This document shows positions 13,403 to 20,745 of a DNA stretch of 64,000 nt, one piece after another. Location of the stretch: the NCBI RefSeq assembly GCF_009792355.1, contig NZ_CP047045.1, forward strand, positions 2,816,501 to 2,880,500, read 5' to 3'. A program made the translations under genes and the position numbers. Position 1 is the stretch's first letter. Every line of letters begins with the position of its first letter. Source of the stretch: Terricaulis silvestris. GTDB taxonomy: Bacteria > Pseudomonadota > Alphaproteobacteria > Caulobacterales > Aquidulcibacteraceae. The notes below the pieces were generated by a model. It made no database searches and was not told where the DNA came from. It saw nothing but the letters and a program-made list of their open reading frames with translations.

Positions 13403-14347
13403 CTAGATCTCAACGAGCCGCGCGCCGGCGGACTCTATGTCGACGACCCAGCCATCCACGCCGATCTGACGCGACGCGAACTGCGCCTCCATCGCCGCCA
13501 GAGCGCTCTGCGCCTGCTCGGCCAACGCCCAGGCGAAAATGGTCGGCCCCGCGCCCGATATCGAGCAACCGAGCGCGCCTTGCGCCATCGCCGCCGCTTT
13601 CACGTCCGCAAAGCCCGGTATCATCGATTGACGCTGCGGCTCGATGAGCACGTCTTCGAAGGAAGCTCGAATCATATCCACATCGTTCGAGTAGCAACCG
13701 GCAATGAACCCCGCGAGGTTTGCCGTCTGCCACACGAAGTCCGACATGCCGATCGTTTTGCTCAGCACCGCGCGCGCTTCCTTTGTCGCCAGATACAAAT
13801 GCGGGTGCACCACGACTGCGCGCACACCCTTCGGCACCGGAATCTGCTTCACGCGCGGATGATCGATGCCGACAGTAAGAACCAGGCCGCCGAATAATGA
13901 TGGCGCGATGTTGTCCACGTGAAGCGATCCGCTGGCGACCGCTTCGCCCTGCATCGCGAACTTCAGAAGATCGAGCTTGCTGAATGGCGTTTGCAACAGT
14001 CGGTTCGCCGCCACTACCCCGGCAACAGCTGAGGCCGCCGAGCCGCCGAGGCCCGAGCCAAGCGGAATACCCTTCTCGATCTCGAGTTCGATGCCGAACG
14101 CTGGCGCCGCCGCTTCGACAAGCGCCTGAACCGCGCGGCCCGCAGTATTCTGCGCGGCTTCCAGGGGAAGATCATCGGCGACGCCCCTGATCGCTTTGAT
14201 CGTAACGCCGGGCGTTGCCGATACGGACGCCGTGACGCGATCACCCAGCACATCAACCGAGAAGCCGAGAATATCGAAGCCGACGCCGACATTGCCGACC
14301 GATGCCGGCGCAAACGCCGTCGCGCGCTGGGCGGCTGCCGCGCTCAC
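13403..14347 (-). CDS. thrB: Homoserine kinase, GHMP family
   Basis: The 314-aa enzyme phosphorylates homoserine. It is the GHMP-fold ThrB: an ATP-binding P-SGLGGS motif lies at about residues 95-103 in PLGSGLGGSAASAV, and the C-terminal GCSISGAGPTIFA is the third GHMP motif. Many alphaproteobacteria instead use an unrelated aminoglycoside-phosphotransferase-like homoserine kinase, so the GHMP type inside a thrABC operon is noteworthy. The start overlaps the thrA stop by four bases, implying translational coupling. Confidence 0.95.
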   Translation of the reverse strand: MSAAAAQRATAFAPASVGNVGVGFDILGFSVDVLGDRVTASVSATPGVTIKAIRGVADDLPLEAAQNTAGRAVQALVEAAAPAFGIELEIEKGIPLGSGLGGSAASAVAGVVAANRLLQTPFSKLDLLKFAMQGEAVASGSLHVDNIAPSLFGGLVLTVGIDHPRVKQIPVPKGVRAVVVHPHLYLATKEARAVLSKTIGMSDFVWQTANLAGFIAGCYSNDVDMIRASFEDVLIEPQRQSMIPGFADVKAAAMAQGALGCSISGAGPTIFAWALAEQAQSALAAMEAQFASRQIGVDGWVVDIESAGARLVEI

Positions 14348-16827
14348 ATGCGCGCTCCAAGGTAGGACGCGAGGCGCAGAAGGTCGGCGAACACGCCACC
14401 GGCCGTAACTTCCGGTCCAGCGCCGGGCCCTTGCACGATGAGTGGGTTGGCGCTGTAGCGGCGCGTTGAATAGCGCACGATGTTGTCGGTGAGCGCGGTG
14501 TTCGCCAGCGGCGCTGAGGCGTCGAGTTCGACAACGCCGACGCGCGCTTCACCCGCAGCGGTAACGCGTCCGACATGGCGCAGCACCTTCCCGCGCGCGC
14601 GCGCGGCTTCGAGCCGTTCGCGCATCGCCGCATCGTGTTCCGGCAACTTCTCCATGAACTCCTCGACGCCGACGTCCTGCAGCGCTTTCGGCGCCAAGCT
14701 CTCGACCACGACGTCGGAGAGCTCCAGCGCCAAGCCCATCTCACGCGCCAGGATGATCAGTTTGCGCGCCACGTCCATCCCCGAAAGATCGTCGCGCGGA
14801 TCGGGTTCTGTGTAGCCGCGCTCCTTGGCGTCGCGCACGACGGCCGAGAACGGCGCGCTGCCGTCATAGACATTGAACAGATACGCCAGCGTGCCTGAGA
14901 AGATGCCTTCGATGCTGGTGATTTCGTCGCCGGTTTCCCTCAACTCGCGCGTCGTGCGCACCACGGGAAGCCCCGCGCCAACGGTGGTTTCGTAAAGATA
15001 GTGCGCTCCGCTGGCCTGCCGCGCCTTCGCCATGTCCTGGAAATACGCGTAGTCGGCGCTGTGAGCCTTTTTGTTGGCCGTGACCACGTGGATGCCACGC
15101 TCGAAGAATTGCACATAGCGGCGCGCCACGTCCTCGCTGGCGGAGCAATCGATGATCACACTGTGCGGCAAGTGCTCGGCGCGCACGTGATCGATGAACT
15201 TGTCGATATCAAGAGTGCTGCCGGCACTATCCCGCTCGCCGCGCCAATCGCTCAGCGCCGCGCCGCGATCGAACAACGCCATCTGTTTCGATGACGCAAT
15301 GGCGCGGACGCGGAAGTCGAGATTGAACTCCTCGCGCAGCCGCGCGCTCTGTGACGCAAGCTGATCCAGAAAAACGCTGCCCACCGAACCCGGCCCGATC
15401 ACGCCGATCGAGAGCGTGTGCGGCGAAAGGTAAAAGCTCGCATGCGCCGCTCGTAGCGCGCGCGTCGTGCTGGCGGCGTCCACCACAGCGGAGATGTTGC
15501 GTTCCGACGCGCCTTGCGCGATGGCGCGGACGTTCACGCCAGCGCGGCCGAGCGCAGAGAAGAGCTTTGCCGCCACACCCGGCATCCCAGCCATGCCGTC
15601 ACCGACAATGGCTAGGATCGCTAAGTCACGATCGATTGTGACGTCTTGAATCTGCCCCGTGCGCAATTCGCGATCGAACGCGTCGCGCACCACGGCGGCG
15701 GCGCGCTCCGCTTGCGCTTCCGGTATCGCGCAGCAGATCGAGTGCTCGGAACTGCCCTGCGAAATCAGAATGACGGAGACGTCGGCCTGCCGGAGCGCGC
15801 CGAACAGACGATGCGCTGTCCCCGGCACGCCGATCATGCCGGCGCCTTCGAGATCGATCATCGCGACGCCTTCGATGCTGGTGATGCCTTTCACCGGCAG
15901 CGTCGATTGTGGATTGGCGCAAATCAGCGTGCCGCTCCCTTCGGGAGCAAACGTATTGAGAATGCGGATAGGGATCGCGTCGGCAATTGCGGGGCCCATC
16001 GTCTGCGGATGGATCACCTTGGCGCCGAAATACGCGAGCTCCATCGCTTCGTTGTAGGAGAGTGAGTCGATCACCGTCGCGCCCGGCACGCGGCGCGGAT
16101 CGGCGGAGAGCACGCCGTCGACATCGGTCCAGATACAAATCTCGCGGGCGCCCAGCAGCGAGCCAAAAATGGACGCGGAGAAATCGCTGCCGTTGCGCCC
16201 AAGCGTTGTCTGCGCACCCTGTTTGTCGGAGGCGACGAAGCCCGTAATGACCAAGAGCGTCTCAGCTCCCGCGTCAATGACCTGCGCTAAGCTCTCCCGC
16301 GAGCGCGCCCAATCGACCATCGGCCCCAGCGGCCCTTGATCCACGACGATTACCTTGCGCGCATCCACCCACGCGACCGGTGTCGCCCTGCTCCGTCCGC
16401 GCTCACGAAGAAAGTACGCGAACAATTTCGACGACCAAATCTCACCGTATCCGGCAACCAGATCGCGCACATTCGGTGCGGCCGTGCGCGTCAGCTGCAC
16501 CGTGTGCTGCACGCCGCGAATATCGCGCAGATCGCTGTCTAACTCATCGCCATAGCGCGCCACCGCTTCGGCTGAGAGCAGTTCGCTGGCAATGCCGGTG
16601 TGGCGCTCGCGCAGGTCGGAAATCGCGCTGTCGATGTCGCCGCGCTGCTCCGCCAAGCTCACCAGCGCGTAGAGCGCGTCCGTTACGCCACGGCACGCCG
16701 ATAGCACGACCGCCGAGCGTTCGCCCGTCCGCGCCTCCACGATATCGGCGACGCGGCGAAGGCACGCGGCATCGGCGACGCTGCTGCCGCCGAACTTGTG
16801 CACTACCCAGGCCGCTTCACCCGACAT
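14344..16827 (-). CDS. thrA: Bifunctional aspartate kinase / homoserine dehydrogenase
   Basis: The protein has 827 aa, matching enterobacterial ThrA (about 820). The aspartokinase domain opens with VHKFGGSSVADA. A regulatory pair of ACT-like domains sits in the middle, including IEGVAMIDLEGAGM and LAILAIVGDGMAG. The NAD(P)-dependent homoserine dehydrogenase part starts near IGVIGPGSVGSVFLDQL and carries the catalytic-region DDLSGMDVARKLIILARE. The fusion joins the first and third steps from aspartate. ATG 16827 has GAGGA just upstream; a TTG at 16845 is less likely. It lies 60 bp after metB, in the same direction. Confidence 0.95.
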   Translation of the reverse strand: MSGEAAWVVHKFGGSSVADAACLRRVADIVEARTGERSAVVLSACRGVTDALYALVSLAEQRGDIDSAISDLRERHTGIASELLSAEAVARYGDELDSDLRDIRGVQHTVQLTRTAAPNVRDLVAGYGEIWSSKLFAYFLRERGRSRATPVAWVDARKVIVVDQGPLGPMVDWARSRESLAQVIDAGAETLLVITGFVASDKQGAQTTLGRNGSDFSASIFGSLLGAREICIWTDVDGVLSADPRRVPGATVIDSLSYNEAMELAYFGAKVIHPQTMGPAIADAIPIRILNTFAPEGSGTLICANPQSTLPVKGITSIEGVAMIDLEGAGMIGVPGTAHRLFGALRQADVSVILISQGSSEHSICCAIPEAQAERAAAVVRDAFDRELRTGQIQDVTIDRDLAILAIVGDGMAGMPGVAAKLFSALGRAGVNVRAIAQGASERNISAVVDAASTTRALRAAHASFYLSPHTLSIGVIGPGSVGSVFLDQLASQSARLREEFNLDFRVRAIASSKQMALFDRGAALSDWRGERDSAGSTLDIDKFIDHVRAEHLPHSVIIDCSASEDVARRYVQFFERGIHVVTANKKAHSADYAYFQDMAKARQASGAHYLYETTVGAGLPVVRTTRELRETGDEITSIEGIFSGTLAYLFNVYDGSAPFSAVVRDAKERGYTEPDPRDDLSGMDVARKLIILAREMGLALELSDVVVESLAPKALQDVGVEEFMEKLPEHDAAMRERLEAARARGKVLRHVGRVTAAGEARVGVVELDASAPLANTALTDNIVRYSTRRYSANPLIVQGPGAGPEVTAGGVFADLLRLASYLGARM

Positions 16828-16887
16828 CCATTCCTCGCGCACCAATGCTAACTAGCGGCTCCGCGCCGCGCAAACCCAGTCGCCTGC

Positions 16888-18048
16888 TCACCGCGCTCTC
16901 GCCACAGCATGGCTCAAAGCCAATTCCAGATCAGCGATGAGGTCGTCCGGATGCTCCAACCCGACCGACACACGCAGCAGGTTGTCCCCAATGCCCGCCG
17001 CTCGACGCGCTTCCGGGCTCATGGCGGCGTGGGTCATGGTTGCGGGATGCGCGATCAGGCTCTCGATGCCGCCGAGCGACTCTGCCAACGCGAAATGGCG
17101 CAGGTTGCGCGTCAGCGTGCGAATGTCGGCGCCTGCCGCCAACTCGAAGCTCAGCATGGCGCCGAAGCCGCTTTGTTGACGCGCCGCAAGTTCGTGATCG
17201 GGATGGGTCTCCAGGCCGGGATAATGCACCACCGCCACCGATGGCAGTTCGCTGAGCCGAGCGGCCACGCGCGCAGCCGTCGCCTGCTGGCGTTCAAGGC
17301 GCACGTGCAGCGTCCGCAAGCCGCGCAGTGTGAGCCAGGAATCGAATGGCGCACCAGTGACGCCAGTGCAATTCGCCCACCAGCGCAATTCCTCCGCGTC
17401 CGCCGCCGCCGCCGCCACAACCGCGCCACCGACAACGTCCGAGTGACCGTTCAGGTACTTCGTCGTCGAATGCACGACATAGTCGGCGCCCAGCGCGATC
17501 GGCTTTTGCAGGACCGGCGAAAGGAACGTGTTGTCGACCGCCACCTTCGCGCCGGTTGCTTTCGCGCGCTTGGCCAGCGACGCGATGTCCGCAATCCGCA
17601 TCAGCGGATTGCTCGGCGTTTCGATCCACAGCAACGCCGGCTGCTGCGCAAGCGCTGCTCCCACTGCGTCGGCATCGCGGAGGTTGGCGTACTGAATACG
17701 GATCTGCCCCTTGCGCGCCCGCGCCTCGAACAGTCGCCACGATCCGCCGTAGCAATCATGCGTCGCGATCACGAGCGCATCTTGCGGCAGTTGCGCCAGC
17801 ACCAGATCCACGGCCGACATGCCGGAACTGGTGATGACCGCGCCCGCACCGCCTTCAAGCTTGGCGATCGCATCCGCCAGCGTCGAACGCGTGGGATTGC
17901 CGGAGCGCGTGTAGTCGTATTCGCGCTTCTCGTTGAAATCCGCGAAGCTGTAATTCGCCGACAGATAGAGCGGCGGCATCACCGAACCGTGAGCGGAATC
18001 CGAATCGACGCCAGCACGACAGGAAATGGTTTCGTCACGGTCAACCAT
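16888..18048 (-). CDS. metB: Cystathionine gamma-synthase / O-succinylhomoserine sulfhydrylase family
   Basis: The 386-aa protein is a Cys/Met-metabolism PLP enzyme. It joins an activated homoserine (from MetX) with cysteine or sulfide. Family marks are YTRSGNPTRSTLADAIAKLEG, the cofactor-stacking Tyr region and the lysine in VVHSTTKYLNGHSD. Choice between cystathionine synthase (MetB) and direct sulfhydrylase (MetZ) cannot be made safely by eye. The context after MetX fits either. ATG 18048 overlaps the metX stop by eight bases and matches the conserved start. I reject the upstream extension to 18114, which lies inside metX. Confidence 0.88.
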   Translation of the reverse strand: MVDRDETISCRAGVDSDSAHGSVMPPLYLSANYSFADFNEKREYDYTRSGNPTRSTLADAIAKLEGGAGAVITSSGMSAVDLVLAQLPQDALVIATHDCYGGSWRLFEARARKGQIRIQYANLRDADAVGAALAQQPALLWIETPSNPLMRIADIASLAKRAKATGAKVAVDNTFLSPVLQKPIALGADYVVHSTTKYLNGHSDVVGGAVVAAAAADAEELRWWANCTGVTGAPFDSWLTLRGLRTLHVRLERQQATAARVAARLSELPSVAVVHYPGLETHPDHELAARQQSGFGAMLSFELAAGADIRTLTRNLRHFALAESLGGIESLIAHPATMTHAAMSPEARRAAGIGDNLLRVSVGLEHPDDLIADLELALSHAVARAR

Positions 18049-19012
18049 GAGCGGGCGCCTCCAAGCATTTTCTGATGATCGGCGCGATGCGTGCGGGCTC
18101 TTTGAGAAACGCATCGTGGCCGTAGATGGACGGAAGAGTGTGAAACCCGCGCAAGTGCGGCAGCCGTTCAGCCAATTCGCGAACGAGGCTGATGGGAACG
18201 AGCTGATCGTCGAGGCATCCGACCAGCGTCACTGCGACGCGGACATCCACAGGATCAACGAAAGCGCGGTCAATTGATTCGCTGAGCGTCAGCCACCGGC
18301 GCGGCGCGCCTGCTTCGGCGTATGTTTCGCCGCGCGCTTCGAGATAGCGGTCAACGCCGCCACGTCCTTCCGCGTCGATGCCGGCGCCAAACCGCGCTTC
18401 GAACTCGTCGGCGGTGCGATAGGTAATCATTGCAAGTTGCCGCGCCAGCGCGAGACCGCCAGCGGCGTCGCCATGCTCCAGCCCAAACGCCACGATGCGC
18501 CGCTGCACGCCGCGCCACGCCAACGCCTGCGCGGCGGGCCGATGCGCCGCCGAGATCACGCACAGCCGCTCGATCCGTTCCGGCGCGAGCGCCGCCAGCG
18601 CGAGCCCAACCAATCCGCCATAGGAAGCGCCGACAAACCCGTGCAGCTTGGGCACGCGGAGCCGGCCCAAAGCAATCACGATCAGACGCGCCTGATCCTG
18701 CGGGGTCAGCCGCACGCGATGATTGCCGGCAGGCGCGAAATCCAGTCCAATCAAGCCGAACCGATTGAGATCGACGGCGCCGTGGTCGCTAATCGTCTCG
18801 CGCCACCAGCCGTCCTCGCCGCACACATTCAAGCCGGCGGAAATGCCTCCCAACGCCAGTATTTGAGGCGCTTCGCGCGGACCGAAACAGCGCAAGCGCA
18901 CGTGCGTATCCGGCAGCAGATCGCCGCTCTCAAGCACGAAATCCTTCGGAATCGGCGCAGCGACATCCTCAAATGGCGCGCTTGGCAGCCGCGTTAGAGC
19001 TAGCGCCGTCAT
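18041..19012 (-). CDS. metX: Homoserine O-acyltransferase, MetX type (alpha/beta hydrolase fold)
   Basis: This 323-aa protein acylates homoserine, committing it to methionine. The nucleophile elbow is GASYGGLVGLA, the Asp lies in VGCLDDQLVPIS and the His in IYGHDAFLKE, a MetX hallmark. The GASYGG elbow resembles MetX proteins shown to use succinyl-CoA (for example in xanthomonads) more than the acetyl-transferring GGSMGG form. That is an inference about acyl choice. It is shorter than typical MetX (about 370 aa). Its ATG at 19012 forms a TGATG overlap with the upstream 109-aa gene, and the SAM-II leader lies ahead of both. Confidence 0.88.
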   Translation of the reverse strand: MTALALTRLPSAPFEDVAAPIPKDFVLESGDLLPDTHVRLRCFGPREAPQILALGGISAGLNVCGEDGWWRETISDHGAVDLNRFGLIGLDFAPAGNHRVRLTPQDQARLIVIALGRLRVPKLHGFVGASYGGLVGLALAALAPERIERLCVISAAHRPAAQALAWRGVQRRIVAFGLEHGDAAGGLALARQLAMITYRTADEFEARFGAGIDAEGRGGVDRYLEARGETYAEAGAPRRWLTLSESIDRAFVDPVDVRVAVTLVGCLDDQLVPISLVRELAERLPHLRGFHTLPSIYGHDAFLKEPARIAPIIRKCLEAPAHG

Positions 19013-19341
19013 CACGCCGCCGCCACGTCGCGTTTGGCCAAAACCAAGTGCTCGATGCTGCCGCGTTCCGCGAGGCCGTCATCCAGCAGCGTATTGAGGA
19101 GGTCGCGGGCCGATTGTGCCGATACCTGCTTCAGCCGACATCGCACATCAAAGCCGCCGTCACTGCGGGCTAGCTGCAGCGCAAGCACGTCTGCGCCGGC
19201 GCAGGAAACGCGCTCAGAAACGGCCGTCCACGCGGTCCAATCCCGGACCGCAAGATGCACATCATGCTGAAATTCAACGCCCGGGAGGTCGGCTAACGCC
19301 GCATCCCCGCTTGCCCGACAGGCGCTATTTGAAAGTCCCAT
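19012..19341 (-). CDS. Unknown 109-aa protein, first gene of the SAM-II-controlled operon
   Basis: I do not recognise a named family. The protein alternates short strands and helices: a segment around FQHDVHLAVRDWTAW, then DVLALQLARSDGGFDVRCRL, and a helix QSARDLLNTLLDDG leading to RGSIEHLVLAKR. This beta-alpha-beta pattern is reminiscent of small ACT-like or ferredoxin-like sensor domains, but the match is only by eye. The ATG at 19341 has GGAG seven bases upstream; an in-frame GTG at 19422 would sit inside the riboswitch and is rejected. Its stop and the metX start form TGATG, so the two are translationally coupled. A regulatory or assembly role in methionine synthesis is an inference. Confidence 0.7.
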   Translation of the reverse strand: MGLSNSACRASGDAALADLPGVEFQHDVHLAVRDWTAWTAVSERVSCAGADVLALQLARSDGGFDVRCRLKQVSAQSARDLLNTLLDDGLAERGSIEHLVLAKRDVAAA

Positions 19342-19420
19342 AGCCAAACTCCGCGCATAAACGCAGCGTCGAATTGGATGGGAGCTTGCGGGCCGAGGGC
19401 GGACGCGCCGAGGCGCACTC

Positions 19421-19478
19421 ACCTCCGCTTTAGCTGTATTTATAACGCGCCCGCAAGCTGAGCATCAAATCGGCGCGA
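19421..19478 (-). ncRNA. SAM-II riboswitch aptamer
   Basis: Read on the minus strand, this 58-nt segment follows the SAM-II layout closely. A 5' P1 strand TCGCGCC is followed by an A/U-rich start of loop 1 (GATTTGA) and a closing GGCGCG. Then come TTATAAATACAGCTAAAG and a purine-rich GGAGG. The conserved ATAAAT-x-x-AGCTAAA stretch is the hallmark of the class, which occurs mainly in alphaproteobacteria ahead of methionine genes. SAM binding should lower expression of the downstream genes. The aptamer ends about 80 nt before the first start codon, so the expression platform is longer than the usual compact form. Confidence 0.92.
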
Positions 19479-19483
19479 CCAAA

Positions 19484-19512
19484 CCAATAGTGCAGTGCAG
19501 CGCGCTTGTCAC
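19484..19512 (-). promoter_or_regulatory. Putative promoter of the SAM-II operon
   Basis: On the minus strand GTGACA (19512-19507) and TATTGG (19489-19484) are separated by exactly 17 bp. Initiation about seven bases downstream of the -10 would fall just before the aptamer's P1 strand at 19478, which is what a riboswitch transcript needs. The -10 match is moderate, so this is an inference supported by geometry. Confidence 0.45.
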
Positions 19513-19638
19513 CATGCAATCTAATCTCCGAATGAAATCCAGCCGATCACGTGTTCGAGACCCGAAAGCAGGCGCCGCAAAAAGTGGCAGGCCCGCCGCA
19601 AGGCCTTGGCGTGCGCCCGGCGGCGCCGGTAACGTGAG

Positions 19639-20745
19639 ATGATGTTAGCGACCGCCAAACGCGTCGTTGTGAAGATCGGTTCGTCGCTTCTCGTCGATGG
19701 CGAGAGCGGCGAGCCAGCCCGCGCCTGGCTCGCCAGCCTGGCCGACGACGTCGCGGCGATGCGGGCAGCTGGCAAAAGCGTGCTGATCGTGTCGTCTGGC
19801 GCCATCGCACTTGGGCGGCGCGCGCTCGGCCTGGAGCGCCTGCACCGGCTCGAACACAAGCAGGCCGCCGCCGCCGCCGGTCAGGCCCGGCTGATGGGCG
19901 CCTACGAGGAAGCCTTCGCCCGCCACGGCATTCCGGTTGCCCAGGCGCTGCTGACCACAGACGACACCGAGCGCCGCCGCCGCTGGCTCAACGCGCGCGC
20001 GACATTGGAAACCCTGCTGGAACTCGGCGCGGTACCGATCGTCAACGAGAACGACACCGTCGCCACCGTCGAAATCCGATACGGCGACAACGACCGCCTC
20101 GCCGCTCGCGCCGCGCAGATGATCTCCGCCGACGCGCTCGTCTTGCTCTCGGATGTCGATGGACTCTACAGCAGCGATCCGCGCCATGACGCTAGCGCGG
20201 CGTTCATCCCTGAAGTCGCCGGGATCACGCGCGAAATCGAAGCCATGGCTGGCGATCCCGGTGCGCTGGGCTCGGGCGGCATGCGCACCAAGATTGAAGC
20301 GGCCAAGATCGCCACCAGCGCAGGCTGCGCCGTCGCCATCACGCGCGGCGACGTGGCTCATCCGCTTGCTGCGTTGGAAGCTGGCGCACGGGCGACATGG
20401 TTCCTCCCCCTCGCCACCCCGCGCGCGGCCTACAAAGCTTGGATCGCCGGGACGCTTGCCCCGCGCGGTGCACTGACAGTGGACGCCGGTGCCGCCGCCG
20501 CACTTCGTACCGGCAAGAGCTTGCTCGTCTCGGGCGTCAGCCAAGTCAGCGGCGCATTCGAGAAAGGCGACGCCGTCCGGATCTTGGACATTGATGGCGC
20601 CGAATTGGCGCGCGGGCTTGCGCGCTACGACGCGGCTGACGCTGCGCGTATCCGTGGCTTGAAGAGCGCCGATATCGCGCAAGCACTCGGCTACGACGCC
20701 GGCGCTGTCATCATCCACGCCGATGATATGGTGGTGACGTCATGA
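19639..20745 (+). CDS. proB: Glutamate 5-kinase
   Basis: The 368-aa enzyme phosphorylates glutamate at the gamma carboxyl, the first step to proline. The amino-acid-kinase domain begins [10 protein letters not shown], contains [14 protein letters not shown] and the substrate loop NENDTVAT, and ends with [17 protein letters not shown]-terminal PUA domain starts near [18 protein letters not shown]. Length is that of the two-domain ProB. Proline feedback is usual for the family. The start codon of proA overlaps its stop by four bases. It is divergent from the SAM-II leader. Confidence 0.95.

Follow-up and report, generated by a model that had tools for sequence, protein, structure and literature searches.

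SAM-II is a standard model of pseudoknot riboswitches that hide a ribosome site without refolding, and the locus analyzed here raises the question of how such an aptamer could act on a start codon that lies far beyond it. In the window (the whole 64,000-nucleotide stretch of Terricaulis silvestris DNA that was analyzed), cmscan matches the Rfam SAM-II family (SAM_alpha, RF00521; model positions 1-79) to positions 19486-19409 with 38.8 bits (gathering score 36). The aptamer and all features described below are on the minus strand. Downstream are genes for a 109-aa ACT-like protein (19012-19341), homoserine O-succinyltransferase MetX (metX, 18041-19015, NF006449), cystathionine gamma-synthase (16888-18114, TIGR02080) and a bifunctional aspartate kinase/homoserine dehydrogenase (AK-HSDH; 14344-16845, NF006959); these methionine/SAM biosynthesis genes form one operon with that of the 109-aa protein. 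The latter has no match in Pfam or NCBIfam, and AlphaFold2, with a 13-sequence alignment, predicts a beta-alpha-beta-beta-alpha-beta fold (pLDDT 82.6). Its neighbors in the PDB include, along with other ferredoxin-like folds, ACT domains with a regulatory role in aspartokinase and phosphoglycerate dehydrogenase, and on the basis of this model it is possibly a free-standing regulatory subunit encoded beside AK-HSDH.

In direct occlusion, the Shine-Dalgarno (SD) sequence lies inside P2 and the start is right behind it. The accessible text of a 2024 review places SAM-II in this group, and reports that P1 of a studied metX SAM-II RNA is protected with or without ligand (PMC10907184). The window leader shares the aptamer, above the gathering score, and the pathway with such riboswitches, but not the layout: its ATG is distant and has an SD sequence of its own. 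The first well-placed start is ATG 19341-19339, preceded by GGAG at 19352-19349. An earlier note on this DNA had put the first start 80 nt past the aptamer; that is a fair description, the distance being 80 nt from an SD-like GGAGG in the 3' strand of P2 (19426-19422) and 67 nt from the end of the Rfam match. The frame of the first gene is open upstream as far as GTG 19422, inside P2, and a start there would permit direct masking. This start was rejected because the frames of same-genus relatives begin at the corresponding downstream start, with an SD-like tetramer in 22 of 23, and because the intervening spacer is not conserved.

The leader does contain a second partner for the aptamer. The 3' side of loop 1, together with the start of the P1 3' strand, forms arm 5 (AGCTTGCGGGC, 19459-19449), and the leader beyond the aptamer contains its perfect 11-bp complement, arm 3 (GCCCGCAAGCT, 19393-19383). 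The perfect 10-nt complement described in the earlier note (AGCTTGCGGG at 19459-19450 and CCCGCAAGCT at 19392-19383) is thus present as given and is extended by one further pair, C19449:G19393. According to the RF00521 alignment and the sequence, P1 consists of CGCGCC (19472-19477) and GGCGCG (19446-19451), and the first three bases of the latter are common to arm 5, so that the aptamer and the alternative helix are mutually exclusive. A 9-nt arm has p ~0.002 in this leader relative to 400 dinucleotide shuffles; a chance match of the arms was rejected on the basis of these shuffles and of the conservation described below. Aptamer and arm 3 are separated by a variable spacer with GC-rich hairpins (19394-19421). 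Beyond arm 3 is a second strand, the anti-P1 block TCGACGC (19366-19372), which complements the P1 5' sequence GCGCCGA (19476-19470) with one mismatch and which belongs to the arrangement in addition to the single stem that had been proposed. Finally, GGAGTTTG (19352-19345), which includes the SD sequence, is an 8-bp complement of CAAGCTCC (19388-19381), which lies in arm 3 and immediately beyond it. This pairing is possible at -9.8 kcal/mol and is absent from the minimum-energy fold.

The reading that we favor, at a probability of roughly two in three, is that of a SAM-II riboswitch with a strand-exchange (anti-aptamer) platform, presumably ON without SAM, probably kinetic and here read out mainly at translation. 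Without SAM, arm 3 would pair with arm 5, and loop 1, P2 and the P1 3' side would be lost. The 5' strand of P1, now unpaired, could take up the anti-P1 block, which closely precedes the ribosome site, and that site would stay more open. If SAM, which this leader presumably binds, were bound during transcription, arm 3 and the anti-P1 block would stay free and fold back onto the SD and start region, and expression would be OFF. The arm duplex, at -20 to -22 kcal/mol (-21.8 kcal/mol as given), is far more stable than P1 (-10.8 kcal/mol), and the choice between the two is therefore probably kinetic. Unless the pseudoknot and bound SAM together contribute ~10 kcal/mol, these energy models would require SAM to bind ahead of the synthesis of arm 3, within the ~40 nt of transcription from the end of P2 to the end of arm 3.

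Arm 3 is strongly conserved within the genus. An RF00521 match is present in 29 of the 61 genomes searched, including that of the window, and arm 3 occurs in all 25 same-genus loci from this search, with exact complementarity of at least 9 nt in each. The alignment comprises the 23 full-length loci; two (L011 and L031, both in genome G003) are cut by contig ends and were left out, and these also carry arm 3. One weaker same-genus match (G015, 28.7 bits) falls outside the 25. When gaps are counted against identity, column identity across the 23 loci is 1.00 in arm 3, versus 0.41 in the spacer before it and 0.39 in that after it, and 0.88 in the block TCGNCGC, which complements P1 5' GCGCCGA except at N. 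The block occurs in 21 of 23 leaders, in some of them with a single change at another position, and N in these is always A, T or C, G being absent. From the genus alignment, RNAalifold returns the arm 5:arm 3 and P1-5':anti-P1 helices, nested, without being prompted. In free folds of the 23 leaders the arm helix has a probability of at least 0.95 and P1 of about 0 in every case, whereas the anti-P1 helix exceeds 0.5 in only five. The genome of the window contains two RF00521 matches. The second SAM-II copy (L001, G000:C1:2987076-2987153) has the same arm and anti-P1 block and lies ahead of a 23-aa open frame, which overlaps a gene that we take, by eye, to encode a LysR-type regulator.

A covariance model of both helices, R1, was built from the 23 same-genus loci, and its matches within the genus are largely by construction. 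These occur in 24 of 30 same-genus genomes, one of which (G028) is doubtful, and are absent from the other six. R1 also matches 33 of 60 family genomes, 81 of 299 order genomes and, in the phylum sample, 24 of the 398 genomes drawn, including that of the window. Matches L112, L115 and L206 were set aside as doubtful, and fifty order matches were taken by region.

Beyond the genus, the significance of arm 3 was assessed for each leader with 400 dinucleotide shuffles and a threshold of p<0.05. L029 and L123, which lack arm 3, L027, which is the same locus as L198, and L206, for which no start was called, were left out of this and the following folding test. Class controls were the best-scoring, canonical RF00521 matches: the best 29 new loci among the matches listed, reduced to 27 by parsing, which failed for the aptamers of L124 and L143. 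Four classic f2 loci were added, L003-L006 serving as controls and not as members. Arm 3 is significant in 23/23 same-genus leaders, a count independent of R1; in the f1, f2, f4 and f5 leaders, which were chosen with a model that contains the helices and whose counts are thus biased upward, it is significant in 6/7 leaders from the rest of the family, 2/2 new f2, 9/15 f5 and 2/32 f4. The controls give 2/27 for the class and 0/4 for classic f2. Taken by itself, the anti-P1 heptamer passes the same threshold in two of seven family leaders, one of two f2, three of 15 f5 and eight of 32 f4 leaders, and in no control; since it does so in none of the 23 same-genus leaders, it was rejected as proof in itself.

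The effect on the ribosome site was computed as the energy needed to open positions -16 to +3 around the start in 79 leaders, each folded whole (SAM-free), without the aptamer (a stand-in for the SAM-bound state) and with 25 shuffled aptamers. For these leaders the start was chosen manually among the open frames, for the controls by script, and pseudoknots were omitted from the folds. Removal of the aptamer makes the site harder to open in 71/79 leaders. Relative to shuffled aptamers, the native aptamer eases opening in 69/79, by a mean of -2.38 kcal/mol (Wilcoxon 2e-11, nominal, the leaders being related). For the same-genus leaders, which were chosen without the model, this holds in 18/23 (p=0.0019, likewise nominal given their relatedness); L001, L007, L016, L018 and L019 go against the model. 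Among the 31 control SAM-II leaders (27 class and four classic f2), easing occurs in 15, with a mean z of 0.02. When the same-genus leaders are folded as the SAM-bound stand-in, the ribosome site has a mean of 11.8 expected pairs, of which 3.5 fall on arm 3 extended by four bases and 2.7 fall on the anti-P1 block. The effect is also present in 29/32 f4 leaders, most of which lack a significant arm 3; arm 3 alone is therefore not its carrier and other strands contribute, perhaps including anti-P1.

The idea of a switching stem that excludes the aptamer, unlike ordinary masking, is thus supported by an invariant arm in a variable leader, by the rarity of that arm in other SAM-II leaders, and by the opening test with its negative control. 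As a general property of SAM-II it is not supported, given the control values for the arm (0/4 and 2/27) and for opening (15/31). The proposal to compare folds with and without the aptamer gave a divided answer: the alternative helix is linked to an expression signal as an average ribosome-site shift across the order, but not as a change of pairing in the window leader, where the SD sequence and AUG are predicted to be paired, with equal probabilities, in both the free and the bound fold. Only the opening energy shifts there (13.15 kcal/mol free, 15.25 bound and 16.32 shuffled), and the anti-P1 helix has a probability of 0.01. In these models the window's own leader is a weak case for the switch, whereas the computed switch is clear in L013, L017 and L024.

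It may be that the distant start is served differently. The accessible text on Sinorhizobium meliloti metA describes reliance on the riboswitch SD sequence in P2 for translation that starts 74 nt downstream, and states that the terminator was not predicted to be SAM-responsive and that the authors could predict no riboswitch-driven antiterminator (PMC9373788). By analogy with that study, GGAGG 19426-19422 could be a standby SD sequence that recruits 30S subunits for the start ~80 nt downstream, hidden in P2 by SAM, with the arm secondary. The geometry is similar, a purine-rich stretch is conserved at this P2 position in the genus, and the assigned start lacks an SD-like tetramer in 13/32 f4 leaders. 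However, a tetramer of this kind (GGAG, GAGG, AGGA, AAGG or GAAG) precedes the downstream start in 22/23 same-genus leaders, and arm 3 in 25/25 loci would be left without a reason. Moreover, two leaders from the same family (L029 and L123, with frames that by eye resemble metZ) have a start directly behind the aptamer and, again by eye, no arm 3, which sets direct occlusion beside strand exchange within one family. A standby SD sequence is thus unlikely here. As far as the text of that study was accessible, metA resembles the window leader in SAM-II translational control from a distant start and differs from it in having the SD sequence inside P2.

Arm 5:arm 3 could alternatively act as an antiterminator, SAM leading to Rho-dependent or non-canonical termination within the leader. 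SAM-II terminators are in print, according to the accessible text of two reports (PMC1273637, PMC2258182), and a search of named sequences provides further examples. SAM-II-like letters surround the pattern in 42 of 57 named stretches. In nine named loci, six from Herbaspirillum, two from Oxalicibacterium and one from another member of the Burkholderiales (L057), arm 3 supplies the 5' half of an intrinsic terminator, as in GCCCGCAAGC-n-GCTTTCGGGC-TTTTTT. Arm 3 lies inside the terminator hairpin in L035 and L070. In L040, L069 and L080 the terminator is between the aptamer and arm 3, as it is by eye in L037 and L083, where the scan made no call. The genes behind L035, L046 and L055 are metX, and those behind L069 (partial) and L083 encode O-succinylhomoserine sulfhydrylase.

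For the window leader, however, a terminator scan of 19200-19650 found no GC hairpin followed by a U run between the aptamer and the gene. The sole site in that interval, a terminator-like hairpin on the minus strand (19606-19589), precedes the aptamer; 0.7 sites are expected by chance in the scanned region. Among the 42 parsed named loci, a simple scan called no terminator in records titled Hyphomonadaceae, Terricaulis, Caulobacterales, Parvularculaceae or Alphaproteobacteria. Attenuation would also leave the opening-energy effect unexplained, and for this leader we consider it improbable.

Some of these loci extend past the boundaries of the Rfam family. Of 16 loci scanned, L035, L057, L069, L070 and L160 reach the RF00521 cut-off and 11 have no match. 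The terminator loci L046, L055 and L086 are among those without a match at the cut-off, and the SAM-II identity of the Herbaspirillum and Oxalicibacterium elements therefore rests on motif letters. R1 also found SAM-II-like aptamers below the Rfam cut-off (L161-L205, f4 and f5 genomes): L158, L163 and L181 have no RF00521 match, while L160 has one. L163 is ahead of a frame resembling homoserine dehydrogenase, and other f4 and f5 leaders are, by eye, ahead of homoserine dehydrogenase or metX. Three metagenome-assembled contigs, L040, L062 and L080 (labelled bacterium, Actinomycetes and Acidimicrobiaceae), also have a SAM-II-like aptamer and arm 3, although these could reflect binning errors; L040 precedes a gene resembling that for betaine-homocysteine methyltransferase.

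The strand-exchange reading can also be examined at the level of individual pairs. In an alignment of 50 leaders (A3, from which 13 antisense matches were left out), 713/747 pair cells (95.4%) are standard, versus 29-48% with slid partners, the alignment having been fitted to the model. The modelled pairs contain one clear both-sided change, in L199, and the 5' side hardly varies. Such changes are scarce because arm 5 is nearly invariant, being fixed by the aptamer. The check in relatives recommended by the earlier note accordingly held for arm 3, which is invariant, whereas covariation proved largely uninformative and was dropped as a deciding test. Just beyond the modelled pairs, the tenth pair is C:G in 21 of 34 leaders, G:C in five (GGGG with CCCC in L028, L030, L173, L192 and L195) and mismatched in eight, including L116, L118 and L160, which have CCCC without GGGG. 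This co-change is suggestive at the level of sequence and is not proof of pairing. In L199 three stretches have changed in concert: the P1 strand (GCGCTGA), the anti-P1 block (TCAGCGC) and a copy of the P1 sequence at the ribosome site (GCGCTGA). Once the aptamer is removed, the anti-P1 block and this copy are paired in the fold. Judged by eye, a similar closure over the SD sequence could occur in L160 (GCGCT/AGCGC) and L168 (GACGCT/AGCGTC), but neither minimum-energy fold uses this pairing.

That arm 3 is kept for some other reason, such as a protein site or an overlapping element, with its complementarity to loop 1 incidental, would be in keeping with the near absence of both-sided changes and hence of covariation proof, but is very unlikely given the exact complementarity of at least 9 nt in all 25 same-genus loci, the presence of CCCC wherever GGGG occurs among arm-3 leaders (5/5) and the fact that nine loci elsewhere employ this arm in a terminator. 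Three points nevertheless lower our confidence in strand exchange slightly: leaders were chosen with the model, some tenth pairs are mismatched, and some terminator loci fall short of the Rfam cut-off.

Relative to direct-occlusion SAM-II, the window leader differs in its distant start and in having a strand, downstream of the aptamer, that can displace P1, loop 1 and P2. With the strand-exchange riboswitches (group 3 of the review) it shares, as far as their accessible text goes, two mutually exclusive secondary structures and an antisequestor logic (PMC10907184, PMC2258182); those riboswitches have other aptamer classes, and the accessible part of the review treats SAM-II under direct occlusion only (PMC10907184). 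In the available text of Leyn et al. (2014), a beta-proteobacterial metXZ element ahead of met genes is described as a pseudoknot that has two alternative conformations, and the authors speculate that an antiterminator arises from interaction of GC-rich regions 3 and 4 with the terminator stem (PMC4239095). That element, as described there, has six conserved regions followed by a terminator hairpin, which the window leader lacks, and the antiterminator idea matches the nine named loci with this arm. We infer from this description that the metXZ element has the same arrangement as the arm-3 SAM-II leaders. For S. meliloti metZ, the accessible text reports a predicted rearrangement into a terminator (PMC9373788). 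A description of an anti-P1 or Hyphomonas SAM-II platform was not found in the open-access literature, as judged from titles and the openings of abstracts. The suggestion that the platform is not the usual one thus holds in that the arm is significant in only 2/27 class leaders and 0/4 classic f2 leaders, but the transcriptional form has a speculative precedent in the printed text that was accessible (PMC4239095), and nine named loci use the arm as the 5' half of a terminator.

On a broader scale, the odds seem to us slightly in favor of an old and widespread strand-exchange SAM-II subgroup, in which one arm directed against loop 1 and P1 acts as an antiterminator in beta-proteobacteria ('metXZ') and as an antisequestor of the ribosome-binding site (RBS) in the order of the window. 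The nested anti-P1 strand would reinforce that arm and would also hold the SD sequence. The RBS may in turn mimic a P1 strand, as in L199, the aptamer and the RBS competing for one strand, and switching would be kinetic.

If a conserved strand-exchange branch of this kind is real, one small aptamer would serve at least three read-outs, and the orphan beta-proteobacterial metXZ element would probably be absorbed into SAM-II. The 11 of 16 scanned SAM-II-like loci without an RF00521 match suggest that the Rfam cut-off misses part of the class. The leaders would then form a natural series, from a terminator, through a terminator with a distal arm, to the RBS only, in which a single arm could be traced between transcriptional and translational control.
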